Positions 22,080-36,257 of a stretch of DNA of 43,143 bases are shown here, one piece after another. Source of the stretch: Hyphomicrobium sp. Its GTDB lineage: Bacteria > Pseudomonadota > Alphaproteobacteria > Rhizobiales > Hyphomicrobiaceae. Made by a program: the position numbers and the translations under genes. The notes under the pieces were generated by a model. The model was not told the origin of the DNA and ran no database searches. It worked only from the letters and a program-made list of their open reading frames with translations. Where the stretch lies: assembly GCF_003987855.1 (NCBI RefSeq), contig NZ_RXIZ01000018.1:834-43976 (forward strand), read 5' to 3'. Position 1 is the first letter of the stretch. Each line of letters opens with the position of its first letter.

Positions 22080-22991
22080 CTATTTGGTCGAAGTCATTGA
22101 GGCTATCGAGGGTAACGCCTTCGGGCTCGGCTCAATAATAACGGTTGAGGTACGCCCGGTTACAAGACGCACACCGCTGGGAACATAATCCAGAGCAATC
22201 CTTACGGGTATGCGTTGCGCGAGACGCACCCAGCTGAATGTGGGGTTGACATCCGCCAGCAGGTTGGCGCCAGCGGTGCGGTCGCGGTCTTCAATGCCGC
22301 GGGCAATGCTTTCGACGTGCCCCGTGAGCTGCTGGTCTTCTCCCATAAGCTGCACAATCGCTTTGTCGCCGACCTCAATGTAGGGCAGCTTGGTTTCCTC
22401 GAAATACCCCTCGACGCGCAGGGAGTCGTTATCAATCAGCGCGGCTACGCCTTTGCCAGCTGTCACATAATTGCCCGGTCTCAAATCGAAGTTCGTAATC
22501 GCGCCGTTGACTGAGGCGCGAACATCGGAGCGTTCCAGGTTTAACTTTGCCATATCCCGATCAGCTTCGGCACGATGAAGATCCGCCTGGGCTTGGGCCG
22601 CTGTTGCCGTTACCTGCTCGATTTTTTGTTCACTGACAGCGATTGACGTCATGGTCTTGTATCGGACCAGGTCCTTTCGCGCGGCTTCCAGTAGAGCAGT
22701 TTTGCCCTCCACGTCGGACTCAGCTTGCCTCAAAGCTAACAGAAATCGCTCGCGGTCAATGCGAAAGAGGACGTCGCCTTTATGTACCATCTGGTTGTCT
22801 TGAGCGTAGACTTCGCTGACTAATCCGGAAACGTCAGGGGCAATTTCCACGATGTCGGCACGCACGCGGCCATCGCGAGTCCATGGCTCGAGTTCGTAGT
22901 AAGCCCACAGTCGCCAACCTATGAGCACAGCGACGAGGGTAAGGGTGACGGTCACAGCGTAGCGGAGCGTGATTTGGAGTTGGCTGTTCAT
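22080..22991 (-). CDS. AaeA-like HlyD-family membrane fusion protein
   Basis: 303 aa. N-terminal membrane anchor (RYAVTVTLTLVAVLIGWRLWAYY, residues 10-31), biotinyl-lipoyl halves (VRADIVEIAPDVSGLVSEVYAQDNQ and SVNGAITNFDLRPGNYVTAGKGVAALID), and an alpha-hairpin between them. It is the periplasmic adaptor for the FUSC permease encoded two genes upstream. ATG 22991 overlaps the DUF1656 stop as ATGA, which fixes the start; a longer frame upstream is only the shadow of the neighbour. The group is annotated for export of aromatic carboxylic acids (E. coli AaeA, p-hydroxybenzoate); the substrate here is unknown. Confidence 0.92.
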   Translation of the reverse strand: MNSQLQITLRYAVTVTLTLVAVLIGWRLWAYYELEPWTRDGRVRADIVEIAPDVSGLVSEVYAQDNQMVHKGDVLFRIDRERFLLALRQAESDVEGKTALLEAARKDLVRYKTMTSIAVSEQKIEQVTATAAQAQADLHRAEADRDMAKLNLERSDVRASVNGAITNFDLRPGNYVTAGKGVAALIDNDSLRVEGYFEETKLPYIEVGDKAIVQLMGEDQQLTGHVESIARGIEDRDRTAGANLLADVNPTFSWVRLAQRIPVRIALDYVPSGVRLVTGRTSTVIIEPSPKALPSIASMTSTK

Positions 22992-23197
22992 AGATGTGTC
23001 TTTGAAAAGAGAAAAACGCTGGCTCCTAAGAAGCAAACAAAAAGAGCAAGGTTGAAAAGTGCTCGATGCCAGACATACCGGTAAGCGCCGATTGCCCTCA
23101 ACATTCGCGATATCACGACAACTGCCACGTAGGCGATGATCGAACAGGGCAGAATCGAGGGAACAAAGACCCCGAAGACGCAAACCTCATCGGTCAT
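22988..23197 (-). CDS. DUF1656 (AaeX-like) small membrane protein
   Basis: 69 aa with two transmembrane helices (VPSILPCSIIAYVAVVVISRML and ALFNLALFVCFLGASVFLF). DUF1656 proteins are regularly encoded between the FUSC permease and the HlyD adaptor in aae-type efflux operons. Here it overlaps both neighbours by 4 bp (ATGA at each junction), so the three are translated together. No enzymatic residues are seen. A role in assembly or stability of the pump is an inference from its fixed position. Confidence 0.9.
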   Translation of the reverse strand: MTDEVCVFGVFVPSILPCSIIAYVAVVVISRMLRAIGAYRYVWHRALFNLALFVCFLGASVFLFSKTHL

Positions 23198-25224
23198 TCG
23201 GCAGCCTCCACATAAGCGGGAGACATCGGAAAGCAGGTTGGCTGCCGATCAGGAAAGAGGCTTCGCTGCAATCCAACTAAGCCGAGCAAGGCCATATTGG
23301 CTGAGTCACTCCGCTCACCGCTCACGGCTATCAGAGCCCGAGTTATCGCCGCGCACAGGAGATCTGACGTTTGAGGGTCAAAACCGTTCTGATAGCAGCG
23401 CTTCAGTCGCTGCAATACTCCGTCAACGCGCCTTCGTGAATAAGATGAGAGTCCTTCTCGTGAGCGGCGAAGATCCAAGATATTAAAGCCCTGCCGAAGA
23501 TCGCGGATGGGTCCTGGAATTCTGTGTCCAGCAGCCTTCGCACGAGGTGCTAAAAGAATTAGGCGGTCAAGCATGATGGCCGTTAGTCGGGTGTCGTCAC
23601 GCTTGCTCTCGATGTCGGTAATCTCGCCTAACGTTCTTTTATTGGCATCTGCGAGCCGTCGAATGCTCCACTCGGCACCGAGTGCTCTCAGTAACGATGC
23701 GATAATAGCGGCAGCTATCACGCCGCATGACATCGCGATGGCGTTGTTGAGAAAGGATGCTGCGTCAACATTGAACGTCTGTTGAAGCCCGACCATCGCC
23801 GCAAAGTTGATTGCGAGTGAAAGTCCAACAAGAAGCGTTTCAGCTTTTGAGATACACAAGCCGAACAATATGAGAGTGGGGGTCAGCGCTATGGATAAGG
23901 TTTCGAAGTTGTGCACGTTGGGAAGGATCAGGAAGACATATGCCGCCGAAATGAACACGGCCACGACGGCCCATTTGGCGAAGACAACAATCGATGGAAC
24001 TGGGTTATCTTGAGCGGAGAAGAGGTTTCCCGAAACTGCGGCCATCATCACGGCGGCGCCGCCTTCGGGCCACGAAGATTGGATCCAAAACATGCAGGCG
24101 ATTGTAATCGTCGCGAAGCTGACGACCGCGGAGAGTAGGGCTAGTCCGTGATCCCGGTGATGAACGGAGGCTGCACTGCCGGCGAGCGTATAGGTGAGCG
24201 GTCTTAGCGGAGCAGCGCTTTCCAGGTAAACGCTCCGTACGACTTCCAGACAGTCTGCGCATATTGCGGCTAGATCCGATAGCCGCATCAGTAGACTGAG
24301 TTCGACAAGCCCAAGCCAGGATTGCCGGGCGCGTCTTAGATCGATGGCAGCTGTGATTTCACCCCGAAGTTCATCAAGACCTCTGGCACCTTTGCTTTCT
24401 TGGTGCTGGAACCATTCCGCAAATCTGTTCACGAGGTGACGAGTGTTAGCTGATGGCTCTCCAATCTGCTTTAGTGCCAATAGCCGATCGGAGATGGCAT
24501 CCAGCACGGGTATCAACATCAGCATCCGAGGATGAACCTCGCGGATGCGACGGATGAATTCCGGATGCCCGGCAGCATCATAAATGAGATGGGTCGCCAA
24601 GTTTTCGATCTCGCCGGTGTCTCCCGCCAGCTTGAGGCGGTGTGTGTCCGCATCGGCGCCAGTCTTCATACGAAGAGCGTCAGCTGCGCTCGTATCCGCG
24701 TCAGCTAGCCATCCCTTCAGGCGGTCATAGATCGCAGGCGCAACCGAGCGGGGAAAGATGATACTCGATACGACTGCTGCACAGAGAATGCCCACAATGA
24801 TCTCCTCGGTCCGGGCCAGTGCGACGTCGAAGATGGTGCTTGGGGCGTTGACCGTTGGGAAGCCGACCAGCGCGGCCGTGTAGCCCGCGAGCATGAAGAC
24901 GTAACTGCGCGGCGTCCTATCGAGCATGGCCAAGTACAAGCAGGCCGAAGACCATAATGCCAAGGCGATAACCGAGAGCACGGGAGCGTTCGCCAAATTC
25001 GGTAAGATGATGACCGCGGCGGAAGCTCCGAGCAGCGTACCGAGGACGCGAAAGATGGCTTTTGAGCGCGTCGCACCGGAGAGCGGATTGGACGCTATGT
25101 AGACTGTCGCCACCGACCAATAGGGGTTGGGTAGCGGTATCCACAGGCTGATGAATAACGCCAGCAACGCCGCGGTGAGGGTCTTCAAAGAGAAAACCCA
25201 TTGCTGAAGGGTGGGCGGGTTCAT
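23194..25224 (-). CDS. AaeB-like FUSC-family efflux permease
   Basis: 676 aa. The FUSC architecture is visible: an N-terminal membrane block (FSLKTLTAALLALFISLWIPLPNPYWSVATVYIAS, up to about residue 170), a soluble cytoplasmic region, and a second membrane block (about 355-515, from ALLSAVVSFATITIACMFWIQSSWPEGGAAVMMAAVSGN) with a further soluble tail. These permeases export aromatic acids with an HlyD adaptor and an outer-membrane channel, which is not encoded here. It is the first gene of the three-gene unit and lies just behind the TetR operator. Confidence 0.92.
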   Translation of the reverse strand: MNPPTLQQWVFSLKTLTAALLALFISLWIPLPNPYWSVATVYIASNPLSGATRSKAIFRVLGTLLGASAAVIILPNLANAPVLSVIALALWSSACLYLAMLDRTPRSYVFMLAGYTAALVGFPTVNAPSTIFDVALARTEEIIVGILCAAVVSSIIFPRSVAPAIYDRLKGWLADADTSAADALRMKTGADADTHRLKLAGDTGEIENLATHLIYDAAGHPEFIRRIREVHPRMLMLIPVLDAISDRLLALKQIGEPSANTRHLVNRFAEWFQHQESKGARGLDELRGEITAAIDLRRARQSWLGLVELSLLMRLSDLAAICADCLEVVRSVYLESAAPLRPLTYTLAGSAASVHHRDHGLALLSAVVSFATITIACMFWIQSSWPEGGAAVMMAAVSGNLFSAQDNPVPSIVVFAKWAVVAVFISAAYVFLILPNVHNFETLSIALTPTLILFGLCISKAETLLVGLSLAINFAAMVGLQQTFNVDAASFLNNAIAMSCGVIAAAIIASLLRALGAEWSIRRLADANKRTLGEITDIESKRDDTRLTAIMLDRLILLAPRAKAAGHRIPGPIRDLRQGFNILDLRRSREGLSSYSRRRVDGVLQRLKRCYQNGFDPQTSDLLCAAITRALIAVSGERSDSANMALLGLVGLQRSLFPDRQPTCFPMSPAYVEAAE

Positions 25225-25322: not shown

Positions 25323-25391
25323 GAGCGCAGCGTCTTGTGAGGCTGCGCCCGCTGCATGTGTCATATTCAAAATCGGAAGGGGCTGACGTTG

Positions 25392-26063
25392 GTGTTGCCG
25401 GCGAAAAGTCGAATGGATCGAAAACCCAAGTTGGCTCTCCGAGATAAGCCCGTTGTGCGCCGACGTGGAACGAGCCCCGAAAAGACAGCTTTGACGCGGC
25501 AGGCAATCGTTGATGCCGCCTTGTCAGAGTTTCTGGAACGAGGTTTCGCGAATACAGCTATCGAAACCGTTGCCAAGCGGGCTGGCGTGGCGAAGGGCTT
25601 GATCTACCGCTATTTCACTACCAAGGAAGCTCTTTTCTCCGCGGTCGTGCAGCAGGAAATCGTGAATGCGCATCTCGACGTCGATGATGCCAAGCGAAAG
25701 GCCGGGGAGAAGGTCGAAGACTTTTTGCGGCGAACGCTCGTCGTCACGATACATGCGATCGAGAAGAAGAGCCGCGCGGAGATCGCGCGTGTGGTGATTG
25801 CCGAAGGTGCTCGTTTTCCCGCACTCGTGGAGATTTATCGCCGCGATGTGCTCGATCCATTGTTGCAGAGGGTGAAAAGATTGGCGTTAGCGGCGAAGCA
25901 GTCAGGTGAGTTATCCGACGACCGCCTCTATAAGAATCCGCATCTTTTGCTGGCCCCAATATGGGCGGGAATCGTGATCAACAAGTTCCTCGACCGGGCC
26001 AATCCGGTGGACATCGGTGCGCTTTTCGAAATGCAGCTGGATATGATATTCGCCAAAGCCTGA
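25392..26063 (+). CDS. TetR-family transcriptional regulator (probable repressor of the efflux operon)
   Basis: 223 aa from GTG 25392. The N-terminal TetR helix-turn-helix is clear: ALTRQAIVDAALSEFLERGF...AIETVAKRAGVAKGLIYRYFTTKEALF. The C-terminal half is the divergent ligand-binding domain. I prefer GTG 25392 because GGAAGGGG lies 9 nt upstream; ATG 25356 and ATG 25413 are other options. It is divergent from the AaeB-type operon, and a 14-bp palindrome lies in the promoter between them, so it probably represses the pump and perhaps itself, with an aromatic ligand as inducer (inference). Confidence 0.88.
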   Translation: MLPAKSRMDRKPKLALRDKPVVRRRGTSPEKTALTRQAIVDAALSEFLERGFANTAIETVAKRAGVAKGLIYRYFTTKEALFSAVVQQEIVNAHLDVDDAKRKAGEKVEDFLRRTLVVTIHAIEKKSRAEIARVVIAEGARFPALVEIYRRDVLDPLLQRVKRLALAAKQSGELSDDRLYKNPHLLLAPIWAGIVINKFLDRANPVDIGALFEMQLDMIFAKA

Positions 26064-26076
26064 TTGCGTGCCTGGC

Positions 26077-27720
26077 TTATAGAAGCGACCATTGATCTGC
26101 AGCAATCGCCCAGGCAAAGATAACCGCGTTCGTTGTCATGTGAGCGGCAATCGCATCTTCAATTTTGCCGCGTCGGATCATGATGAGGGCATAGAGCGCG
26201 CCCGCAAGCGTTGCCGCGAGCCATCTGTCATGCATCAATCCGAAGAGCGCTGAAGATATTATCAGCGCTAAGAACCGGAACGTTCGGGCGTCGACCTCTT
26301 CAAATCGCGATGCAATCAGCGAACGGTAGAGGAAGCCTCGAAACGCAAGTTCTTCCGCGATCGGCACAGTCACGATGGTGCCGAGGCCCCTAACGATCAG
26401 CCAGGCAACCACAACGGTGGGAGCAAGACCACCGAGGGATGCAGACAGTGGGGACTGTGATCCGACCGTTGGATCAGTCGTCACCCATATGAAACCAGCA
26501 ATAGCGCCGAGGATGATCGAACTCAACGCAGGCACCGATAGGAACCGCGTGTAGACGCCGCGCATAACGGTTAGAACGACTAGAACCGCGGCGACCTTCA
26601 ACGGATAGAGGAGATAGTCCTGCGGAGCTGCAACTCGCGTTGCGATCTGTGCTGCCATCAACGCGATGAAGGGCGCCAAATAGACGAGAGCGGGGTTCGT
26701 CTCTACGCTGAGCTGCGCTGTTTCGCTATTTCCGGCCGCGTGCGCGTTTGCCGTCGCGCCGAAGAACGACAATCGCTGGGCAAACGTCATTATGGTGATC
26801 GCCACGAGCAGAAAGCTGATCCAGCCGAACTGGGAATGGAACCCCCCAAGTGCGATTTCAGGAGATAGATGGGCGCCGATGAGGATCAGAAATGCAATCC
26901 TGAAACTATTCAGGATCCATATCGCGGTCATCGCTAGCGGGAAAAGCACCAGCACATTGGGAAACCGCAGCGCCTTGCGAAACAACAGGATGTATCCGAC
27001 GAGAAAGACGGCGATGAGTATCATGCCCTCGTAGCCGGAACATGCAGCGAAGATCTGAACGCTGAAGTTACCGGCGCCGAGTATGCGCGTGCCATGATCC
27101 ATGAAGGTGCCGCTGTCGATGGATTTCGCGATCCAATACGAAAGCTGCAGCGTGGCATGTGAGAGTTCGGCCCAGTTTTCTTCTGAGAAGAAGCTTCCGC
27201 CGGCCCTTTTCAGAAGCTCGCCTACGACGAGTCCGAACAGCCCGAAGAATAGCGAAAGAACAAGTTCAAGCCGGCATGTGCGTGCGATGATCCGCCAGAA
27301 CGAGATTGGTGCGCCGACTAGCAACAACGACACAACTGCTGTTGAGAGCGTGGCAGCATAAAGGTAGCTCGCCAATGTCGTAGTGTCTTGGGGAGCTTCG
27401 GCAATGTAGTAGCGGATGAGCGCCGTGCAGAGCACCGCCGCTATGCTTACGGCGGCTGTTGGCAGCACAGGCGCGTCGACTGTGCTGTTATTGAAAGCGC
27501 TTATGATTTCTGCCCGTTTCGGCCAACTAATGAGCGCGAAGATCGCGAGCGAGAGCACAAGGATTTTGACAGCAGCATGTGCGACCCCAATGACCGGCCA
27601 GATGTTCCACACGTCCGGTAGGCGCGCGAACAAGGTCGTCGCAAGAAGCTCAACCACGGCGAGAGAGCAGCAGGCCGCGAGTCTAAGCTGAGGCGAAGGT
27701 GATCTCGTCGCGGATGTCAT
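26077..27720 (-). CDS. xrtE: Exosortase E fused to a CPBP/CAAX-type intramembrane protease
   Basis: 547 aa, many transmembrane helices. Residues about 20-310 form an exosortase: catalytic Cys227 in QIFAACSGYEGMILI, Arg274 in ILNSFRIAFLI and His295 in GGFHSQFGW, the Cys/Arg/His set of the exosortase family. Residues about 340-547 form a CPBP (CAAX protease/bacteriocin-processing) domain: E456-E457 in VPIAEELAFRGFLYR, H497 in FGLMHDRW and H527/N531 in AAHMTTNAV. This fusion is the hallmark of exosortase E/protease of the VPEID-CTERM system. It probably cuts and sorts C-terminal VPEID-type signals at the inner membrane. The likely substrate gene lies 42 bp upstream on the same strand. ATG 27720 has GAGGGG 9 nt upstream. 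The tetR gene converges from the other side. Confidence 0.93.
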   Translation of the reverse strand: MTSATRSPSPQLRLAACCSLAVVELLATTLFARLPDVWNIWPVIGVAHAAVKILVLSLAIFALISWPKRAEIISAFNNSTVDAPVLPTAAVSIAAVLCTALIRYYIAEAPQDTTTLASYLYAATLSTAVVSLLLVGAPISFWRIIARTCRLELVLSLFFGLFGLVVGELLKRAGGSFFSEENWAELSHATLQLSYWIAKSIDSGTFMDHGTRILGAGNFSVQIFAACSGYEGMILIAVFLVGYILLFRKALRFPNVLVLFPLAMTAIWILNSFRIAFLILIGAHLSPEIALGGFHSQFGWISFLLVAITIMTFAQRLSFFGATANAHAAGNSETAQLSVETNPALVYLAPFIALMAAQIATRVAAPQDYLLYPLKVAAVLVVLTVMRGVYTRFLSVPALSSIILGAIAGFIWVTTDPTVGSQSPLSASLGGLAPTVVVAWLIVRGLGTIVTVPIAEELAFRGFLYRSLIASRFEEVDARTFRFLALIISSALFGLMHDRWLAATLAGALYALIMIRRGKIEDAIAAHMTTNAVIFAWAIAADQWSLL

Positions 27721-27762: not shown

Positions 27763-27939
27763 TTAGCGCTGTCCCTGTTGCCATTGCCTATAGACGACAG
27801 CCGTGACGCTAAGAAGTAGTGCAACGACGGCGACGCTGCTGGCCGCGTTGATTTCAGGCGCTGGATGGGGGCCGCTTGGAGTGCCCGGATCTCCAACGCA
27901 GTGCCATAAAGCTTTGAAACAATCGATAATAAACTGCAC
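27763..27939 (-). CDS. Small VPEID-CTERM-type sorting-signal protein (probable exosortase E substrate)
   Basis: A 58-aa GTG-start gene read directly from the - strand. It begins MQFIIDCFKALWHCVGDPG, has a Gly/Pro/His linker (TPSGPHP), then the sorting-like motif APEIN, a hydrophobic helix (ASSVAVVALLLSVTAVVY) and a short tail with two Arg (RQWQQGQR). The plan motif-helix-basic tail matches CTERM signals; APEIN differs from VPEID at the first and last positions. A perfect AGGAGG lies 5 nt before the GTG (27939). It sits 42 bp upstream of the exosortase E gene, on the same strand, in an operon-like layout. Small VPEID-CTERM proteins next to xrtE are known in this system. The two cysteines (7 and 14) are extra. 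A homology search would settle it; the call rests on motif and context. Confidence 0.8.
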   Translation of the reverse strand: MQFIIDCFKALWHCVGDPGTPSGPHPAPEINAASSVAVVALLLSVTAVVYRQWQQGQR

Positions 27940-28421
27940 GCCGGCCTCCTGCGCATACTCTTTGAGTTCGAGCTAAGCCGGACCGGAACGGCATTCAATA
28001 TCGTCGTTAAGAGTTGGTTAAATCTGTGAGGCCGATTTTTCTGCGCGAAGCATCGAACCGCTTTGCGGCTCGGCACTCTTAACGCTGAAAAGGACGGAGC
28101 CACCGAGAGAAACCTAAACGACTAATCCGATCTATGCTTTGGTTGCGCTCATCTTGCAGCTATCGTGCCAGCACTTTTCTGGCGTGTTCGGCCATCCGAG
28201 AGCGCAAATACCGGAACACTGGTTTCTCTAAGGCGATTGTGTTCCTACCTGCGTTTCAAATCGGTACAACGTAAGGGAATAGGCAAGTAGGCAATGCGCG
28301 GCTATTCCGCCAAGAGAGACGCTCCCACGAGGCATTGGTCGTCGCTCTCTATGATCAGGGAAATGTCCCGCCGCTAATCAGTTCAACAGAAGCTCAAATC
28401 CCGACAGATGAGGAATTCAAA
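27940..28421. other. 482-bp gene-free spacer
   Basis: It holds the ribosome-binding site and promoter region of the exosortase E operon (27940 to about 28100, with the CtrA-type box) and the upstream region of the EthD gene. I see no convincing gene, RNA or repeat in 28100-28400. A 128-aa frame on the - strand across 27717-28103 is out of register with the small sorting-signal gene and has no matching features. Confidence 0.6.
28007..28021 (-). promoter_or_regulatory. CtrA-type box upstream of the exosortase E operon
   Basis: TTAA-N7-TTAA (28007-28010 and 28018-28021), the consensus of the alphaproteobacterial cell-cycle regulator CtrA; read on the - strand it is TTAACCAACTCTTAAC, close to the fuller TTAACCAT-type half site. 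It lies 68 bp before the start of the small sorting-signal gene. Random occurrence of TTAA-N7-TTAA is possible in an AT-richer spacer, so this is a candidate only. Confidence 0.45.
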
Positions 28422-28769: not shown

Positions 28770-29909
28770 TCAGGGCGAGTTCGCATTCGTCGGCGGGGGA
28801 GCACCAAGGAAGAATAATATCGGCGGTGGCGGCAGGTTGGGCTGTTGAGGTACCGCAGGCGGAGGCGAAGCAGAGGCGGTCATTTGGCTGGCAGGCTGGC
28901 TACGTCGCTTTTGAGCAATTGCTCTCTTGTACTTCTGAATGGCGTGCTTTTTTATGGGCGCTGGTTTCGCGGGAGCTGCGTCGACCTCAGCAATCTTGTT
29001 GTTCTGATCGTTGAGTATCGTTAGTTGGGCTTCGGCCCGAAACGACTCGGCAGCCGTCGCGGGAAGGCGTATCGGCACATAGTTCGTGCTGTCGAACGGA
29101 TAGCGCCAATTGACTTGATCCCAGCTTTCTTGGTCATCGAGCTTAACAGCGGCAGCCGCTGCTAACGCCTCGGTTTCTCTTGGCTCAGCCATGCCTTCGA
29201 GCATTGGACCCGCGTCGGTTTTCTTCTGTGGCGGTTCTTCCTTGAGGCTTGAGGTTATTGCCTGGGCAAGAAGCTTGTTACGGAGAGGCTCGGCGAATGA
29301 CAGGCGGTTCTCCAGGTTGAAGTCAGGGTGCGGTTGAGCAGGCTGGGACGTCGGTGTCTTTTCGCTGATCGGTTGCAGGCGAGCAGGCATTAGCAGGATC
29401 AAAATCGGGATGAGCAGAGCTGCCAAGCCAAGTCTTGCAATTTCGTCGCGCCGCTTTTTGTCGGCCAATTTATCAAGTCGCGACCGAGTGTGCTGCTGGA
29501 TAGATGAGAGGTAGTTCTTCGCTGCGGTGTAAGTCGATTGCACCTTCCCGCTGGCGTACGGAAGAGAAGAGGCTTGCAGTTCGACTGGATCCGCATCCGC
29601 CTCGAGGTATTCGAGAGGCAGATTTGAATCTTGATTTGGACTGATGAGAAAAACCGGGAGGTCTAGAGGCCTCAGATCATCTGCGGCGGACTTCCGAACG
29701 CGACGTCTTTTTCGCCACGTTTGTGGGCCTCTTTTTTGGACGTCTTGATTTTCCTTACTCAGGATCACTGTCGGTCCATATCCTGAAACGCTCAATTGGC
29801 AAAAAAGTTTAGGGCAATTTGAATGGCTAAGGCAGCCATAGCTTGACCAATCGAGGTGTGCATTCGTTTCAGCTATCAGAGTTGAGGATTGATTATTCCG
29901 CGTCCCCAA
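28770..29909 (-). CDS. One-pass membrane protein with Pro-rich C-terminus, unknown function
   Basis: 379 aa at most. There is a basic, Ser-poor N-terminal part, a helical stretch rich in Lys/Arg (SIQQHTRSRLDKLADKKRRDE) and one transmembrane helix (about residues 155-172, LGLAALLIPILILLMPA). The C-terminal ~200 residues are low complexity, Pro/Ala-rich and end with a run of Pro (LPPPPILFFLGAPPP). A cytoplasmic N-terminus and an external Pro-rich tail are likely. The frame opens with TTG at 29909 but has no clear ribosome-binding site; the GTG at 29768 is an alternative, so the N-terminal 47 residues may be false. It is divergent from the wzm-like gene. I do not recognise a family; a role with the polysaccharide cluster is only suggested by position. 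Confidence 0.6.
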   Translation of the reverse strand: MGTRNNQSSTLIAETNAHLDWSSYGCLSHSNCPKLFCQLSVSGYGPTVILSKENQDVQKRGPQTWRKRRRVRKSAADDLRPLDLPVFLISPNQDSNLPLEYLEADADPVELQASSLPYASGKVQSTYTAAKNYLSSIQQHTRSRLDKLADKKRRDEIARLGLAALLIPILILLMPARLQPISEKTPTSQPAQPHPDFNLENRLSFAEPLRNKLLAQAITSSLKEEPPQKKTDAGPMLEGMAEPRETEALAAAAAVKLDDQESWDQVNWRYPFDSTNYVPIRLPATAAESFRAEAQLTILNDQNNKIAEVDAAPAKPAPIKKHAIQKYKRAIAQKRRSQPASQMTASASPPPAVPQQPNLPPPPILFFLGAPPPTNANSP

Positions 29910-30078: not shown

Positions 30079-31050
30079 ATGGCTGCATCGGTTGCAACCT
30101 ATGGCTGTGGCTGGGTGAAGCAATTCACCCGGCGTTCGGTAGATTGGATATCGCACAGCTTCGCCAAACATGCCGCTCGTCAATTGCGGGCTTTTGGGCT
30201 TCAGCACTCTCCATTGTCGTCTGATCAATCATCCCGTCTGCTTGTCATCGAGGCCGGAGGTCCGGAGCAGAGATATTGGATCGACCTTTGGCATTACCGG
30301 GAGTTGTTTGCCGTTCTCGCTTGGCGCGACGTTGCCGTGAGATACAAACAAACTCTTATCGGAATAGCCTGGGCCATCATCAGGCCGCTATTGACGATGG
30401 TCGTATTCACCGTTGTGTTCGGCAAACTTGCGAAACTGCCGAGTGAGGGCAACGCGCCATATCCAATCCTGGTCTTCGCAGGTTTGCTGCCATGGTTCCT
30501 TTTCTCAAGCATCCTCAGCGAAGCATCCAATAGCCTCGTGAGTAATTCCAATCTGATCAGCAAGGTCTACTTCCCTCGGATTATCGTTCCGGTGTCTGCG
30601 AGCGTCGTCGCCCTTGTTGATTTCGGCGCAAACTTGCTGATCTTCTTTGGTCTCGTCGCATGGTATGAGTATGCGCCTAGCTGGCACGTCGCGCTTCTCC
30701 CGGTCTTCATTTTATTCGCCGTGATAGCCAGTCTTGGACCTGCGCTCCTGATTACGGCGTTGAATGTCAAGTATCGCGACGTTCGATATATCATTCCGTT
30801 CGTCATTCAGTTTGGCCTTTACGTCTCGCCAGTTGGTTTCTCAAGCGACGTCGTCCCTGACCAACTTCGTGTTTTGTACAGCCTCAATCCAATCGTTGGT
30901 GTCATCGACGGATTTCGGTGGTGTCTGCTTGGCACCGCGGAGCTCGATGTATGGGGTTTGCTCGCGAGTGCTGGGGCGTCCCTATTCTTGCTCTGGGTTG
31001 GCGTTCGATATTTTCGTCGCACGGAGCGTTCGTTTGCCGACATCATATAG
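30079..31050 (+). CDS. ABC-2 type polysaccharide export permease (Wzm-type)
   Basis: 323 aa. A variable N-terminus of about 70 residues leads to YWIDLWHYRELFAVLAWRDVAVRYKQTLIG, a stretch typical of the TagG/Wzm permeases of the ABC-2 family. Six transmembrane helices follow, ending SLFLLWVGVRYFRR. These proteins export lipid-linked O-antigen or capsule chains with a Wzt-type ATPase, here encoded 20 bp downstream. The start is not certain: ATG 30079 has only a weak ribosome-binding site. It opens a co-directional cluster (30079-36257). Confidence 0.9.
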   Translation: MAASVATYGCGWVKQFTRRSVDWISHSFAKHAARQLRAFGLQHSPLSSDQSSRLLVIEAGGPEQRYWIDLWHYRELFAVLAWRDVAVRYKQTLIGIAWAIIRPLLTMVVFTVVFGKLAKLPSEGNAPYPILVFAGLLPWFLFSSILSEASNSLVSNSNLISKVYFPRIIVPVSASVVALVDFGANLLIFFGLVAWYEYAPSWHVALLPVFILFAVIASLGPALLITALNVKYRDVRYIIPFVIQFGLYVSPVGFSSDVVPDQLRVLYSLNPIVGVIDGFRWCLLGTAELDVWGLLASAGASLFLLWVGVRYFRRTERSFADII

Positions 31051-31069
31051 GCAACACAAGCAGTACACG

Positions 31070-32329
31070 ATGGACACAAGCGTCATTCGAGTCGAAGGCC
31101 TCTCGAAGAGGTATTCCATCGCGCGCCAAAGGCGAGACCGCTACAAGGCTTTGCGAGACGTCATTTCAAGTGCCGCAAAGAGCGGCCTGCGCATGAGCAT
31201 CGACGCGCTTATGCGGAAGTCTCGCGCACCTTCCGCCGAGTTCGAGGAGTTCTGGGCCCTTAGAGATGTTTCGTTCCGGGTTTCCCGCGGTGACGTGGTT
31301 GGTATCGTGGGGCGAAACGGCGCTGGCAAGTCGACATTGCTTAAAGTTCTCTCGCGCATAACCGACCCGACGCAAGGACGCGTTTCTGTTCGCGGCCGAA
31401 TTGCTAGCCTGCTCGAGGTTGGTACGGGGTTTCATCCCGAACTCACAGGCCGGGAGAATATATATTTGAACGGTGCCATTCTCGGCATGAGGCACGCGGA
31501 GATCCGACGAAAGTTCGATGAAATCGTTTCGTTCGCCGAGGTCGAGAGGTTTCTCGATACGCCGGTTAAACGGTACTCCAGCGGAATGTATGTGCGGCTA
31601 GCGTTTGCGGTCGCGGCGCATCTTGAGCCGGAGATTCTGGTCGTCGATGAAGTTTTGGCTGTGGGGGACAAGGAGTTTCAGCAGAAGTGCTTGGGCAAGA
31701 TGAAGAACGTCGCGGGTGAGGGGCGGACCGTTCTTTTTGTCAGTCATAATCTCGCGGCCGTGCGAAGCCTTTGTAACCGGGCGCTGCTAATGTCCGGAGG
31801 CGAAATTGTTATTGATGCCCCGGTCGATGCTGTCATCCGACGTTACATCAGTTCGAATGCCGGGGAATATTCCGTGTCGTTTGCTCCAAACGACTCGCGA
31901 CCGTCAATTTCGTTTGTCCGCGTCGACCGCGACGGGCTTTGCGATCGCTCTTTGGTGATAGAGATTGGTTTCGTTTCACCAAGACCCCTACAGACTGCGG
32001 TCCGAGGCGTGGTCTTGCGGGCGGATACCGGCGAACCGGTCTGGGGATCAAATAGCAGATTTCATCCAAGCAACCATTCTATGAAGGGCTTTTCCGTGGG
32101 TAGTCTGCGATGCGAAGCCAAGGGATTGCCGCTTTCAGCAGGGACCTACCACATCTCGGCTTGGCTGGCTGACTGGCACGAGGACCTTGATTCAAAATTG
32201 GATGTCTTGAGCATCGCCTTCGGCGAAGATGCAAGCGATCATCTGCGTCCACCTGTTTCAGCTCTTGGACATTTGGACTGGCCAGCAAGTTGGCGCGTGA
32301 TGCCAAGCGAAGCCGTTTCAGCGGCCTAA
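31070..32329 (+). CDS. Polysaccharide export ABC transporter ATPase with carbohydrate-binding C-terminal domain (Wzt-type)
   Basis: 419 aa. The nucleotide-binding domain (residues 1-about 245) has Walker A GRNGAGKST (about 82-90), signature YSSGMYVRLAFAVAAH (about 169) and Walker B ILVVDEVLAVGD, with H-loop FVSHN. The segment LLEVGTGFHPELTGRENIYLNG is diagnostic of polysaccharide exporters. Residues about 265-410 form a Wzt_C-type beta-sandwich (VRGVVLRADTGEPVWGSNS..., LSAGTYHISAWLAD) that binds the chain end in Wzt-type proteins. ATG 31070 follows the permease stop by 19 bp. The presence of the C-terminal domain points to end-modified chains; two methyltransferases follow downstream. Confidence 0.93.
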   Translation: MDTSVIRVEGLSKRYSIARQRRDRYKALRDVISSAAKSGLRMSIDALMRKSRAPSAEFEEFWALRDVSFRVSRGDVVGIVGRNGAGKSTLLKVLSRITDPTQGRVSVRGRIASLLEVGTGFHPELTGRENIYLNGAILGMRHAEIRRKFDEIVSFAEVERFLDTPVKRYSSGMYVRLAFAVAAHLEPEILVVDEVLAVGDKEFQQKCLGKMKNVAGEGRTVLFVSHNLAAVRSLCNRALLMSGGEIVIDAPVDAVIRRYISSNAGEYSVSFAPNDSRPSISFVRVDRDGLCDRSLVIEIGFVSPRPLQTAVRGVVLRADTGEPVWGSNSRFHPSNHSMKGFSVGSLRCEAKGLPLSAGTYHISAWLADWHEDLDSKLDVLSIAFGEDASDHLRPPVSALGHLDWPASWRVMPSEAVSAA

Positions 32330-32447
32330 ATCAATGAGTGATCGCTAAATCGGTGTTCGTGCAGCGATAAGGCTTCGGCGCGCGCTTCAAACCAGAGCTG
32401 AGGCCACGCGGTGGCAAGCCATCTACGATCGGTATCGTCAATCCACG

Positions 32448-33056
32448 ATGCTGTCTCGACAAGCTTACCTCGACAATCTCGCCATAGCTTCTTTGGTCGC
32501 TGGCAAAGCTGCTCTCTCAGGTCACGGAGTGGTGGAATGCGGGACTTGGCGGGGCGGCATGGCTGCAGGATTGATGGAAATTTTGGGTAGCGACCGCTGC
32601 TATCATTTCTTTGACAGCTTCAGTGGTTTGCCGGAAGCGAGAGTGATTGACGGCGAGGCTGCCTTACTTTGGCAAGCCAACAAAAGTGGGCCAACCTATT
32701 TCGAGAACTGCACAGCGTCTGAAGACGAGTTTCGAAAAACGATAGCTTTCGTCGGAAAGACTAGCCACGCATGCACGATACATCGAGGATTGTTCAACGA
32801 TACTGTTCCCAAGTCCGAGACGGGAGCACTCGCGCTGCTTCGTGTCGACGGGGATTGGTACGACTCCACGATGACGTGCCTCGAAGGGTTGCTTCCGCGC
32901 GTCGCAATCGGCGGTGTTGTGATCATTGATGATTATGGAACATGGGACGGGTGCACGCGCGCTGTGCATGATTATCTGGCGGTCCATAAGCGTGCGGAGT
33001 CGATTGAGAGATACGGCCGTAGTGCCGTTCCCTATCTTCGAATTAGAGGCACCTGA
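32448..33056 (+). CDS. TylF/MycF-type O-methyltransferase
   Basis: 202 aa. Family motifs: VVECGTWRGGMA (residues 28-39, SAM site), FDSFSGLPEA (55-64), LRVDGDWYDST (131-141, metal-binding Asp134/136), and VVIIDDYGTWDGCTRAV with Asp161/162. TylF/MycF enzymes methylate sugar hydroxyls in macrolide biosynthesis; homologues in bacterial surface polysaccharide clusters methylate sugars of the chain. It lies in a co-directional set with Wzm/Wzt and the glycosyltransferases, so it probably acts on the exported glycan, perhaps as a terminal cap recognised by Wzt (inference). Confidence 0.9.
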   Translation: MLSRQAYLDNLAIASLVAGKAALSGHGVVECGTWRGGMAAGLMEILGSDRCYHFFDSFSGLPEARVIDGEAALLWQANKSGPTYFENCTASEDEFRKTIAFVGKTSHACTIHRGLFNDTVPKSETGALALLRVDGDWYDSTMTCLEGLLPRVAIGGVVIIDDYGTWDGCTRAVHDYLAVHKRAESIERYGRSAVPYLRIRGT

Positions 33057-33062
33057 GTCATT

Positions 33063-33812
33063 ATGGCCGAGATTGTGTATCACTGTGAGCGGAACATTCA
33101 TTCGCTCCGCGGCGCGCGCAGTGGACTAGAAAAGCTGCTGAGGGGAAGGCAAATTGCCAGTCTTCTGGACGTCGGCTCTGGCAGAGGGACCTGGCTCGCC
33201 GCCGCCAGGGAATTGGGAATAGAAGATATCGCCGGCATCGACGGAGTCGCGGTAGATGCGTCTGAGCTTCACATCGACCCAAGCGTCATCCGAATTTTTG
33301 ATCTCAGAAAAACAGTATTTCTGGGGAGACGCTTCGATCTGGTTCTGTGTCTCGAAGTCGCCGAACATCTTGATTCAAGCTCGGCAGAAGCATTGATCGA
33401 GACGCTTTGTTTGCACGGCAACCTCGTTTTCTTCTCGGCTGCGGCTCCCGGCCAGCACGGCGAACACCACGTCAACTGCCGCTGGCCTTCATATTGGCAG
33501 GGGTTGTTCAACGCAGCAGGCTACGTCTGTAACGATGATCTACGTGAATATATCTGGGATGATTCCGAAATCGAGCCTTGGTACAGGCAAAACCTGTTCT
33601 CGGCACACTCAGATCCAGAGCTTGCAGGGACAGAACCGCGAATCCGGGCGCTGATTCATCCTGAGATGACGCGACACATGGATTTTGCGGACTCTCCGCT
33701 GGCTAGGAAGCAGTTCAATCTTTCGGAAGGCGTTTACAGTCCATATCATTACATGCGCCTTTTTGGTCGATCGATCAGGCGCCGCATTACCCAGGGTGCA
33801 GCCAGCACTTAG
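33063..33812 (+). CDS. Class I SAM-dependent methyltransferase
   Basis: 249 aa with the SAM-binding Rossmann motif LLDVGSGRGTW (residues 34-44), the acidic second strand GIDGVAVDASEL and the post-I motif RFDLVLCLEVAEHLD, a typical Methyltransf_23 layout. The C-terminal half is less conserved. It starts 6 bp after the TylF-type gene and ends 1 bp before the GT2 start, so it is within the same unit. Its substrate cannot be read from the sequence; a glycan or glycolipid is likely from context. Confidence 0.88.
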   Translation: MAEIVYHCERNIHSLRGARSGLEKLLRGRQIASLLDVGSGRGTWLAAARELGIEDIAGIDGVAVDASELHIDPSVIRIFDLRKTVFLGRRFDLVLCLEVAEHLDSSSAEALIETLCLHGNLVFFSAAAPGQHGEHHVNCRWPSYWQGLFNAAGYVCNDDLREYIWDDSEIEPWYRQNLFSAHSDPELAGTEPRIRALIHPEMTRHMDFADSPLARKQFNLSEGVYSPYHYMRLFGRSIRRRITQGAAST

Positions 33813-33813
33813 G

Positions 33814-34878
33814 ATGGACCGAGCTTCAATATATGGTGCGTCAGTAATTGGCGTGTCAGTTGTTATCTGCGCGCATAACAGTGCCGCACGAGTTCGGCCT
33901 ACGCTCCAAGCTCTAGCGCGGTGTCGTGCACATTTCCCAGTTGAGATCATACTGGTTGATAACAACTCGAGCGACGCCACTGCCGAGATTTCCGAACAGA
34001 TATGGCTGGCCGTTGGAAATTCCCATTTCGCCTTCTCGGTCGTAAGTGAGCCGCAGGCAGGCCTTATCTACGCTCGAAGAAAGGGAGCTGCGGTCGCATC
34101 GTACGACATCGTCATTTTCTGCGATGACGATAATTGGCTGAGCGAAGATTACCTTGTGAATGCCGTCAGGATCATGGCGGACGGAGGTGTCGGCGCTGCT
34201 GGCGGCTGCTCTACACCGACCAATCCAGAACGGTTGCCGGCGTGGTTCTATACCTTCTCCTGGGGTTACGCCGTCGGAGTGCCGTTCGACTGCATCGAGA
34301 AACTGCCGTCAGGCGACGTAACGGAGCACCATGTCACTGCGTTATGGGGAGCGGGCATGATTGTCCGCCGCGACGCGCTGCGTTTTCTTTTCTCGTTACC
34401 AGGCTTTCCAGCGCTTACAGGCAGAAAAGGTTTAACCGTCGCGTCCGGGGAAGATCTAGAAATATCCGCTTGTATCGCCTGCGCGGGATACAGCCTCCTT
34501 TTCAGCAGCACTCTGCATTTCAAGCATGATATTGCGCCGGAACGCCTCACCGCGGATTATGCAAAAAAGCTTTTCGGAAGCTTCGGAGCAGGGTTTGAAG
34601 TGGTCGGTCACTACCGAACTACAGCAGAGGCCCTGAAGTATCCGTGTTGGTGTGCAGTGCTCGGGTCTATTCGAATTCTAAAGCACGCACTGCATTGGCG
34701 GTTGCGTCACGATTCATTTCTGCCAGTTCTGGCTGCCTTACGGCTCTCTATTGCCATGAATGAGCATCAGCGGCGAATTTTCGATACGGTGCAGCGGATT
34801 CAGAAGCACCGGACAGAACGTATGGGTCCGACCTCGCCCGCCAAGTGTTCCGTTGTTTCGCAGCCCTTAACTGAATGA
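33814..34878 (+). CDS. Family 2 glycosyltransferase
   Basis: 354 aa from ATG 33814. GT-A fold motifs: SVVICAHNSAARVRPTLQAL (residues 15-34), EIILVDNNSSDATAEI (44-59), AGLIYARRKGA and the metal-binding DDD at residues 104-106 in IVIFCDDDNWLSEDYL. A later GAGMIVRRDALRFL and SGEDLEISACI segment matches the ED acceptor motif. It starts one base after the methyltransferase stop and overlaps the next gene as ATGA. It is a cytoplasmic enzyme building the repeat unit or adaptor of the surface glycan. Confidence 0.9.
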   Translation: MDRASIYGASVIGVSVVICAHNSAARVRPTLQALARCRAHFPVEIILVDNNSSDATAEISEQIWLAVGNSHFAFSVVSEPQAGLIYARRKGAAVASYDIVIFCDDDNWLSEDYLVNAVRIMADGGVGAAGGCSTPTNPERLPAWFYTFSWGYAVGVPFDCIEKLPSGDVTEHHVTALWGAGMIVRRDALRFLFSLPGFPALTGRKGLTVASGEDLEISACIACAGYSLLFSSTLHFKHDIAPERLTADYAKKLFGSFGAGFEVVGHYRTTAEALKYPCWCAVLGSIRILKHALHWRLRHDSFLPVLAALRLSIAMNEHQRRIFDTVQRIQKHRTERMGPTSPAKCSVVSQPLTE

Positions 34879-36257
34879 ATGCAGCTGAGGCCCGCTTGGG
34901 AGACCTTCGGAGACGAGTCTGCCTGCATCTCGTAGGCGCTTCGACGATCTCAGGAGGCGGGGGCTCGAATACCTTTATTCGGGGATTAGCGCGTCGGCAG
35001 GCTGATCTCGGATGGACGCCGATCGTGGTGCTCAGTCAAGGGCGTGGCCAGACTGTCGGAAATGACGATAAATCCAGCGAGAATTTCGAAGTGCGCGTGC
35101 TTCCTGAAGTTCGAGGAGTTGACCGACGCGCATATTATAACCGCTGTCCGGTCGAGGCACCCGGAGTCGCGGAATTGTTCAGCGAACTGTGTCCGCGAGT
35201 CGTGCATTTTCATACGCTCAATCCGGCCGCGGGGAGGTTGCACCTAGAAGCGGCGAAGGCTGTGAATGCGCGTACGGTCGTGACTTATCATACCGGTGGT
35301 ATCTCCTGCCCACAGACAGGTCTTCTGGAAAACGGGCGAGCGCCATGCGACGGCCGTCTTTCACTCGAGCGCTGTACGCGCTGTCGCTTTGCTAACCGGG
35401 GGATCCCTAGGCCTGTCGCCGAATTTCTCGCCCGTCATCCAAGTAGAATGGGGTCACATGCTGATTCTTCGTTATTTGGTCGATTGGTATCATCGCGCGC
35501 AATGACCGATGAGTTCATTCGTTCCTTTCATCACGCCGTCAGCCTAATCGACGTTTTTCACATTCAGTCTCGCTGGATCGCTGACGTTCTTCGGACAAAT
35601 GGAGTTCCAGCATCGAAGTTGGCGCTTGTGGAAATGGGGGTCGCACAGGCCGCTGCCGTCGGGAGATCTGACTTACCTGAGAGCTTCAGCAAGGATCGTC
35701 CGCTTCGACTGGTATTCGCGGGGCGCTGCATCGATGTCAAAGGCATTGAAACGATTCTGGCTGCGTTTCGAATTCTGCCGCCCGCAGTCCCTGTGGAAGT
35801 CTCGTTTCTAGGTAGTGGATGGGAAACAGCGTATGGCGTGAAATTGCTTCGTCAGTTCGATCGGGACATTCGGCTCCAACGGCCGCGCGTGATTTGCAAT
35901 GATGATATTCTAGAAGAGTTAGGCCGGCACGACGTCTGCATCGTTCCTTCAATTTGGCTAGAGACTGGCCCCTTGGCTGTCTACGAAGCGATGGCGGCGG
36001 GAGTGCCTGTGGTTGGAAGCTGTCTTGGCGGTATTGCCGAACGCGTCCGTCACAACATCGATGGACTGCTATTTCAGCCAGGTAATGCGCGAGAACTTGC
36101 GCAAATCATTCGAGCACTCGTGGCCTGCCCAGACCGACTCCGTCAGCTGCAGCGGAATATTAAGCCCCAACGTACATTTGATGATATGACGCAAGAGTTG
36201 GACAAGATTTATCTTGAAGGAGAACCAGCTTCGTGCGGATCCGGCTCAGGATGCTAG
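34875..36257 (+). CDS. Family 4 glycosyltransferase
   Basis: 460 aa. An N-terminal GT4 domain (LHLVGASTISGGGGSNTFIRGLARRQADLGW) and a C-terminal half with LVFAGRCIDVKGIETILAA and the EX7E motif E363...E371 in ETGPLAVYEAMAAGVPVVGS. Around residues 143-175 a four-cysteine cluster occurs (C..x..C...CTRC), as in some GT4 enzymes of rhizobial surface polysaccharides. The ATGA overlap with the GT2 gene shows coupling. It closes the co-directional cluster; the following gene is on the other strand. Confidence 0.9.
   Translation: MNAAEARLGDLRRRVCLHLVGASTISGGGGSNTFIRGLARRQADLGWTPIVVLSQGRGQTVGNDDKSSENFEVRVLPEVRGVDRRAYYNRCPVEAPGVAELFSELCPRVVHFHTLNPAAGRLHLEAAKAVNARTVVTYHTGGISCPQTGLLENGRAPCDGRLSLERCTRCRFANRGIPRPVAEFLARHPSRMGSHADSSLFGRLVSSRAMTDEFIRSFHHAVSLIDVFHIQSRWIADVLRTNGVPASKLALVEMGVAQAAAVGRSDLPESFSKDRPLRLVFAGRCIDVKGIETILAAFRILPPAVPVEVSFLGSGWETAYGVKLLRQFDRDIRLQRPRVICNDDILEELGRHDVCIVPSIWLETGPLAVYEAMAAGVPVVGSCLGGIAERVRHNIDGLLFQPGNARELAQIIRALVACPDRLRQLQRNIKPQRTFDDMTQELDKIYLEGEPASCGSGSGC

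Follow-up and report, generated by a model that had tools for sequence, protein, structure and literature searches.

A 58-codon gene upstream of xrtE in Hyphomicrobium encodes a probable exosortase E substrate that appears to lack a signal peptide

Directly upstream of xrtE, the gene for an exosortase E/CPBP protease fusion, the genome of a Hyphomicrobium sp. (assembly of 3.78 Mb, 99.6% complete) carries a genuine gene of 58 codons. The pair lies on the minus strand of the window, by which we mean the whole stretch of 43,143 nucleotides that was analysed. Judged from sequence and genomic context, the product of the small gene (MQFIIDCFKALWHCVGDPGTPSGPHPAPEINAASSVAVVALLLSVTAVVYRQWQQGQR) is very probably a substrate of XrtE, and the precursor appears to have no recognisable signal peptide, the start codon in use leaving no room for a classical leader. 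With only slightly more reserve we also favour the proposal as a whole, in which a dedicated XrtE substrate would be inserted N-out without a leader, cut by the exosortase and turned into a peptide product. Relative to the preliminary description of this DNA, what appears to be new is the lack of a signal peptide in the window copy and the presence of this state in two separate xrtE clades. The literature searched, which consisted largely of papers available without subscription, yielded no report of exosortase E substrates free of a signal peptide.

The small gene and its partner enzyme

The reading frame runs from a GTG codon (27939-27937) to a stop codon at 27765-27763, and the exosortase/CPBP fusion begins, on the same strand, with an ATG 42 nt further on. 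In the product, APEIN (residues 27-31) is followed by a hydrophobic helix (peak 19-residue hydropathy C-terminal of the motif, 2.17) and by RQWQQGQR. A low-confidence structure model (mean pLDDT 66) has a helix at residues 32-57, and the Pro-Glu-Ile-Asn stretch is the presumed cleavage region. These features agree with the preliminary description, which had listed a GTG frame with a perfect AGGAGG site, APEIN, a helix and an Arg-containing tail, 42 bp from a same-strand exosortase/CPBP fusion. AGGAG is also found close ahead of the start codons in four relatives (G007, G011, G014, and G016).

Related copies are present in seven genomes of the genus, the window's included. They lie directly ahead of xrtE in G007, G011, G014, and G016, and on another contig in G004. 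Between the window and G014 we counted 13, 9 and 29 differences at codon positions 1, 2 and 3 over 57 codons (NG86 dN 0.20, dS 2.1; the G014 row is without its start codon), and between G007 and G011 4, 3 and 17 (dN 0.063, dS 0.56). Since several other dS values of the pairwise comparison were saturated or undefined, we relied on the codon-position pattern for coding constraint. The frame at 27763-27939 is a genuine gene because third-position changes dominate among relatives and because its occurrence is tied to xrtE. Its shortness and GTG start would suit a chance frame in the xrtE leader, but the codon-position pattern, the ribosome site, the co-occurrence and the related copies in the seven genus genomes contradict this reading and leave it a negligible probability. 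The preliminary description had named, as observations that would speak against the gene, a frame without conservation in relatives, which is contradicted by the copies in G007, G011, G014, G016, and G004, and a frame that changes like noncoding DNA, which is contradicted by the excess of third-position changes.

By score and by residues, the window enzyme is exosortase E/protease (TIGR04162; E 1.4e-64, 219 bits against a cut-off of 150, profile positions 42-515 of 516). Pfam recognises an exosortase domain (PF09721) and an Rce1-like CPBP domain (PF02517, residues 440-533), and xrtE is the sole match in the genome to the exosortase core model TIGR04178. The exosortase Cys stands at residue 227, where the preliminary description had placed it. 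We take Cys227, Arg274 and His295 to be the catalytic residues of the exosortase, and EExxxR to be the CPBP protease motif. CSG was found in all 31 XrtE sequences, 30 of which had themselves been picked with a CSG-type pattern, and N..RI in the corresponding position in 29 of the 31; in G111 and G466 the pattern hit elsewhere. The EELAFR motif was not found in two XrtE fragments (G452 and G488). A comparison of the window XrtE with named genomes gave five loci, two of them in Hyphomicrobium MAGs, the nearest at 70% identity. The AlphaFold model of XrtE (mean pLDDT 46) was too poor for use, and a phmmer search against PDB gave no match at E <= 1.

Table 1. Features of the small gene, its upstream region and xrtE in the window
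Feature	Position	Strand	Basis
xrtE, exosortase E/CPBP protease fusion, 547 aa	26077..27720	-	TIGR04162, PF09721, PF02517
EELAFR (Glu456-Arg461), presumed CPBP protease motif	26338..26355	-	invariant in alignment A3; PF02517 match
His295 codon (HSQFGW)	26836..26838	-	HS..GW in 31/31 XrtE
Arg274 codon (NSFRI)	26899..26901	-	invariant in alignment A3
Cys227 codon, presumed exosortase nucleophile (CSGYEG)	27040..27042	-	invariant in five XrtE rows of alignment A3
Gene for the 58-aa putative exosortase E substrate	27763..27939	-	ORF; related copies in relatives; codon-position pattern
Predicted hydrophobic helix, about residues 32-50, basic tail after it	27790..27846	-	hydropathy and model
Sorting motif codons Pro28-Glu29-Ile30-Asn31	27847..27858	-	Pro and Glu invariant in 14/14 aligned cores
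WxC core codons Trp12-His13-Cys14 of the predicted mature peptide	27898..27906	-	WxC in 13/39 family copies
Shine-Dalgarno AGGAGG	27945..27950	-	spacer of 5 nt to GTG, read from sequence
CTGGCACGATAGCTGCA, putative sigma-54-type promoter site	28155..28171	-	215 bp upstream of GTG; sequence match and conservation

Association with xrtE and relation to VPEID-CTERM proteins

The curated VPEID-CTERM model, TIGR04161, matched in 4 of 385 genomes of the class (above its cut-off in 2), a reach too small for an analysis of co-occurrence, and we therefore built our own profile, A2, from proteins of 14 of the first 15 genomes with xrtE. TIGR04162 matched in 27 of the 385, above the cut-off in 4 including the window genome, the rest being mostly CPBP-only matches. 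The first genome set numbered 60, our own included; xrtE was above the cut-off in 15 of them, and A2 matched in each of these 15. Among the 45 genomes without xrtE we detected one weak partial match (G005, E 8e-4), which sits in a 476-codon frame read as a permease. The family set comprised 103 genomes, 27 of them above the TIGR04162 cut-off. G452 was counted as the 28th genome with xrtE (148 bits; a further piece lies on a different contig), and G029 and G487, where the CPBP part alone matches, were counted as lacking it. A2 matched 27 of these 28 genomes versus 1 of the 75 others (G005). In the remaining xrtE genome, G488, a DAPEIG variant lies directly ahead of xrtE and is picked up when the same core profile is run at small scale (E 2e-4), and a PE[IF]-helix-basic protein is encoded in all 28 xrtE genomes among the 103. 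Since A2 derives from all but one of the first 15 genomes with xrtE, the fair test is in the 88 genomes outside those 15, where it matched 12 of 13 with xrtE versus 1 of 75 without (Fisher 8e-13, a nominal value since the genomes are related).

The putative substrate gene lies directly upstream of xrtE and on the same strand in 25 of the 28 genomes, overlapping the longest xrtE frame in two. The exceptions are G004, with substrate and enzyme on different contigs, and G028 and G445, where the substrate lies 1.2-1.3 kb downstream. A two-gene arrangement with xrtE, and small genes upstream of xrtE to be tabulated in relatives, had both been put forward in the preliminary description, and the 25 adjacent same-strand pairs bear this out. 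Its reading of the 58-residue protein as an exosortase E substrate is strongly backed by co-occurrence, adjacency, the conserved frame and the motif.

The preliminary description had also suggested a search with the VPEID-CTERM model. This failed, the 58-residue protein giving no TIGR04161 match at E <= 10 (cut-off, 33 bits), and no match was found over the whole genome, or in the named control genomes, at E <= 0.001. Among nine other family copies (of 38), six scored 13.9-28.5 bits and three had no match. The copy in G009 reaches 28.5 bits, below the cut-off of 33, the copy in G081, a genome from another part of the class, reaches 49.8 bits, and comparison of profile A2 with the G081 protein gave a probability of 93.7. 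The window family thus seems to form an outlying VPEID-CTERM branch, continuous with the rest and beyond the reach of the curated model, so annotation relying on TIGR04161 would miss it. The likenesses to the VPEID-CTERM/exosortase E system are an enzyme above the TIGR04162 cut-off, a PE[IF][DN] motif with a helix and a basic C-terminal tail (alignments A1 and A2), the small gene beside the enzyme, a Gly/Pro-rich linker ahead of the motif in the window's branch, and the co-occurrence with exosortase E expected of VPEID-CTERM proteins (28/28 versus one weak match in 75). The window protein differs in having no TIGR04161 match, in its APEIN motif and Trp/Cys core, and in having no recognisable signal peptide. 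The PEP-CTERM model TIGR02595 gave 0 matches over the genome, as it did in the control genomes.

APEIN had been described as a drift from VPEID. The motif does differ, but it is a variant of the clade rather than a lone drift, since five of the seven genus copies without a signal peptide have PEIN and the other two PEID. Elsewhere in the class, in G111 (L070), three small proteins of APEVS/VPEIS type are encoded near xrtE and the motif drifts further. The two N-terminal Cys, considered unusual in the preliminary description, are part of a recurrent core (IWHC, FWNC, FWDC, KWNC) and so are not unusual. A Cys precedes the motif in 25 of the 39 family copies (14 have none), and Trp-x-Cys occurs in 13 copies from six genera, versus a mean of 1.4 and a maximum of 7 in 5000 shuffles, with kin kept in the set. 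The 39 copies are phylogenetically dependent, and their starts and leader labels were read by eye. Mature parts were split with a crude A-x-A rule that leaves leader residues in G026, G031, G445, G473, and G463 and mis-splits G444d. Because the Trp/Cys core recurs, the product of the 58-residue gene is suggested to be a defined peptide rather than arbitrary cargo.

We found a second copy in the window genome (G000:C19, near 123843; 77 aa, A2 E 6e-7), which we read as bearing a leader, with a mature part starting at GCFLFICWPDGGGSGGGSPAAAPEID. The preliminary description had named a VPEID-type protein elsewhere in the genome, combined with noncoding-like change in the small frame, as grounds against its reading; the first half was found, in this copy, and the second half is contradicted. 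Second leader-bearing copies in G011, G007, and G014 (L088, L089, and L090) are read as lying between an acyltransferase-like gene and a B12-dependent ribonucleotide reductase-like gene. Two to four substrate copies are present in 9 of the 28 xrtE genomes, and 11 extra copies, on other contigs or far from xrtE, have diverse mature parts, as expected of substrates. A tiny protein tied to xrtE might also regulate XrtE or the envelope, or be a membrane partner of either, with PEI as an uncut docking site, and several family members do have fewer than ten residues from leader to motif and hence little cargo. We consider this quite improbable, given the multiple and diverse copies, an architecture in three parts that is the same as in sorting signals, and the continuity with TIGR04161 proteins seen in the G009 and G081 copies.

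N-terminus, topology and proposed processing

Exosortase substrates nearly always have an N-terminal signal peptide; for PEP-CTERM proteins, the founding paper (PMC1569441) gives an estimate of 97%. Nine copies of the present family were read as leader-less, namely the seven of the window's genus and those of G025 and G506. Signal-peptide status was judged by eye and by hydropathy, and in leader-bearing copies with several possible starts the start was chosen by hand. From the upstream stop to the start there are 11, 3, 3, 3, and 11 codons in the window, G007, G011, G016, and G014, respectively, and 5 in G025. The proteins of G025 and G506 are 42 residues long, with 14 residues ahead of PEF. 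The net charge of the N-tail is 0 or negative in all nine leader-less copies, against 0 to +3, and positive in 26 of 30, in leader-bearing ones; Lys and Arg are absent from the first six residues in 8 of the 9, whereas all 30 leader-bearing copies have at least one. The N-tail being neutral or acidic and the C-tail basic, the predicted insertion is N-out/C-in.

The N-terminal stretch MQFIIDCFKALWHCV might instead be a short atypical signal peptide, either cleaved or acting as a signal anchor, so that only the Gly/Pro linker and PEIN would be periplasmic. Over 12 residues, the hydropathy of the seven genus N-tails (1.3-2.2) overlaps that of leader-bearing copies, and the low-confidence model of the 58-residue protein has a helix at residues 2-15. 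In G014, whose GTG carries an AGGAG site, an in-frame TTG seven codons further up is a possible start that would add a basic stretch. This TTG and the leader-like hydropathy of G007 and G011 (2.1-2.2) argue for keeping an atypical leader in view. It is nevertheless unlikely, given that six of the seven genus tails have no Lys or Arg in their first six residues, that Asp or Asn falls within the stretch in six of the seven and no A-x-A site is present, that Trp-x-Cys belongs to the mature part of leader-bearing relatives (e.g., AFWNCAAPEID and AFWDCPPVPEFD), and that the short G025 and G506 copies keep so few residues ahead of their motif.

On the XrtE tree, the leader-less state that we favour occurs in two clades (seven rows, 100/100, and two rows, 100/100), which needs two changes, and 0% of the 200 bootstrap trees unite the leader-less rows in a single clade. 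Of the 28 forks of the tree 10 are open, and the rows of G488 and G111 are long; the starred branches, taken alone, would also allow one origin. The start of the G025 protein (MGWASFAAAYC) resembles the end of the G034 leader (GWVSSAAAVC), which suggests loss of the leader through truncation.

In the processing that we propose, the sole C-terminal helix of the precursor would insert in the inner membrane in the N-out/C-in orientation, probably by the YidC/Sec route as for small N-tail proteins; N-out insertion without leader cleavage is probable. Cys7, Trp12, Cys14, the Pro/Gly linker and PEIN would then face the periplasm, where the exosortase half, with Cys227, Arg274 and His295, would be expected from its family to cut at or near PEI-N. 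Argued from analogy, a cut near PEI is moderately likely, somewhat less so than the insertion. A Trp/Cys peptide of about 30 residues would be released, or transferred to an acceptor. The CPBP half may afterwards make a second cut or clear the leftover helix, which is the weakest step and a doubtful one. Slightly better placed, and still tentative, is the broader conjecture that exosortase E serves here as a maturation enzyme for tiny Trp/Cys peptides and not as an anchor of surface proteins. The leader would have been dispensed with in at least two lineages, the sorting helix would both export the N-tail and present the cut site, and the product, made from a sigma-54-type promoter, would have about 14-30 residues.

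Parts of this scheme have counterparts in other systems. The PEP-CTERM/EpsH system (exosortase A type) likewise has a tripartite C-terminal signal and a membrane enzyme with a Cys nucleophile and a proposed catalytic triad, according to PMC1569441, and upstream of the window gene there is a putative sigma-54-type site, a kind reported there for proteobacterial PEP-CTERM genes; motif and enzyme are different, and the PrsR model is below its cut-off in the window genome. In the MYXO-CTERM/myxosortase system, as presented in PMC11980579, the CPBP protease MrtX acts on a Cys-bearing tripartite signal, a precedent indicating that CPBP enzymes can act in sorting, and XrtE too carries a CPBP half. 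The Cys of MYXO-CTERM is invariant and lies in the signature motif just ahead of the helix, whereas in the window family it stands at a variable distance from PEI or, in 14 of the 39 copies, was not found, and XrtE adds an exosortase half. A lipidated-Cys model borrowed from myxosortase was rejected on the same two observations. For insertion, the analogue is mechanistic only, with no sequence relation claimed: small YidC-inserted proteins of Pf3 coat type, YidC supporting insertion and N-tail translocation of Pf3-Lep according to PMC5766580. A natural leader-less substrate of 58 or even 42 residues would be a minimal one-helix substrate for probing the exosortase reaction and would imply, if the reading is true, that sorting signals can also take on the role of export signals.

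Upstream region and neighbouring genes

The substrate gene and xrtE probably form one transcription unit, with a candidate sigma-54-type promoter. Scanned for TGGCACNNNNNTTGCW, the window has no perfect match and a single one with one mismatch, at 28155-28170 on the minus strand; sites with at most two mismatches are at chance level (22 found versus 20 expected). CTGGCAYRATWGCTGCA starts 218-279 bp upstream of the start codon in the window, G007, G011, G014, and G016. It occurs once in each of these five genomes, from which the pattern was derived, and in none of the other 17 of the 22 genus genomes. Among 39 upstream regions, two of them shorter than full length, 6 have a site with at most one mismatch (three in those five genomes), versus a Markov mean of 0.14 and a maximum of 2 in 200; the other strand has 0. 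At up to two mismatches, no site was found in 28 of the 39 regions, G004 and G019 among them. A scan for sigma-70 sites gave a single weak one, which lies on the opposite strand. Haft et al. 2006 (PMC1569441) described sites of sigma-54 type ahead of most proteobacterial PEP-CTERM genes. The model for the PEP-CTERM regulator PrsR matched in all 60 genomes at E <= 0.001 and was above its cut-off in one, the window genome being below it. This one regulator (G004:C312:3202-4527) may belong to a separate PEP-CTERM system.

In G007, G011, and G014 the beginning of a divergent, luciferase-like gene covers the site, so that coding constraint on this gene could be what keeps the site. A tblastn search with this gene gave no significant match at the window and G016 loci, where the 17 site bases are identical. 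The opposite strand at both sites reads AAIVP, as does the start of the luciferase-like gene, and for this reason the conservation in the window and G016 may be a coding remnant of the divergent gene.

Polysaccharide genes lie at 30079-36257 in the window, and an EPS link near the closest relatives is possible. Besides xrtE, neighbour families of at least 90 codons are common to at most 7 of 18 loci, and we therefore claim no such link; the cluster shared by 7 loci is a mix of ABC-type genes that includes the window gene at 30764-32329. The gene at 28770-29909 on the minus strand has 379 codons and, by eye, encodes one TM helix and a Pro-rich C-terminus. Its product had no NCBIfam match at E <= 10 and no Pfam match, and relatives were found in 3 of the 17 other loci (G007, G011, and G014). 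A gene for 240-283 residues is a direct or close neighbour of xrtE in 5 of the 18 loci (L058, L059, L060, L064, and L065); its product, read as an outer-membrane beta-barrel, is a possible envelope partner of the xrtE system. On the other side of xrtE, the window carries FUSC/HlyD efflux genes (22080-25224, minus strand) and a divergent TetR-type regulator (25356-26063, plus strand), and genes of these types also lie beside xrtE in G007, G011, and G014.
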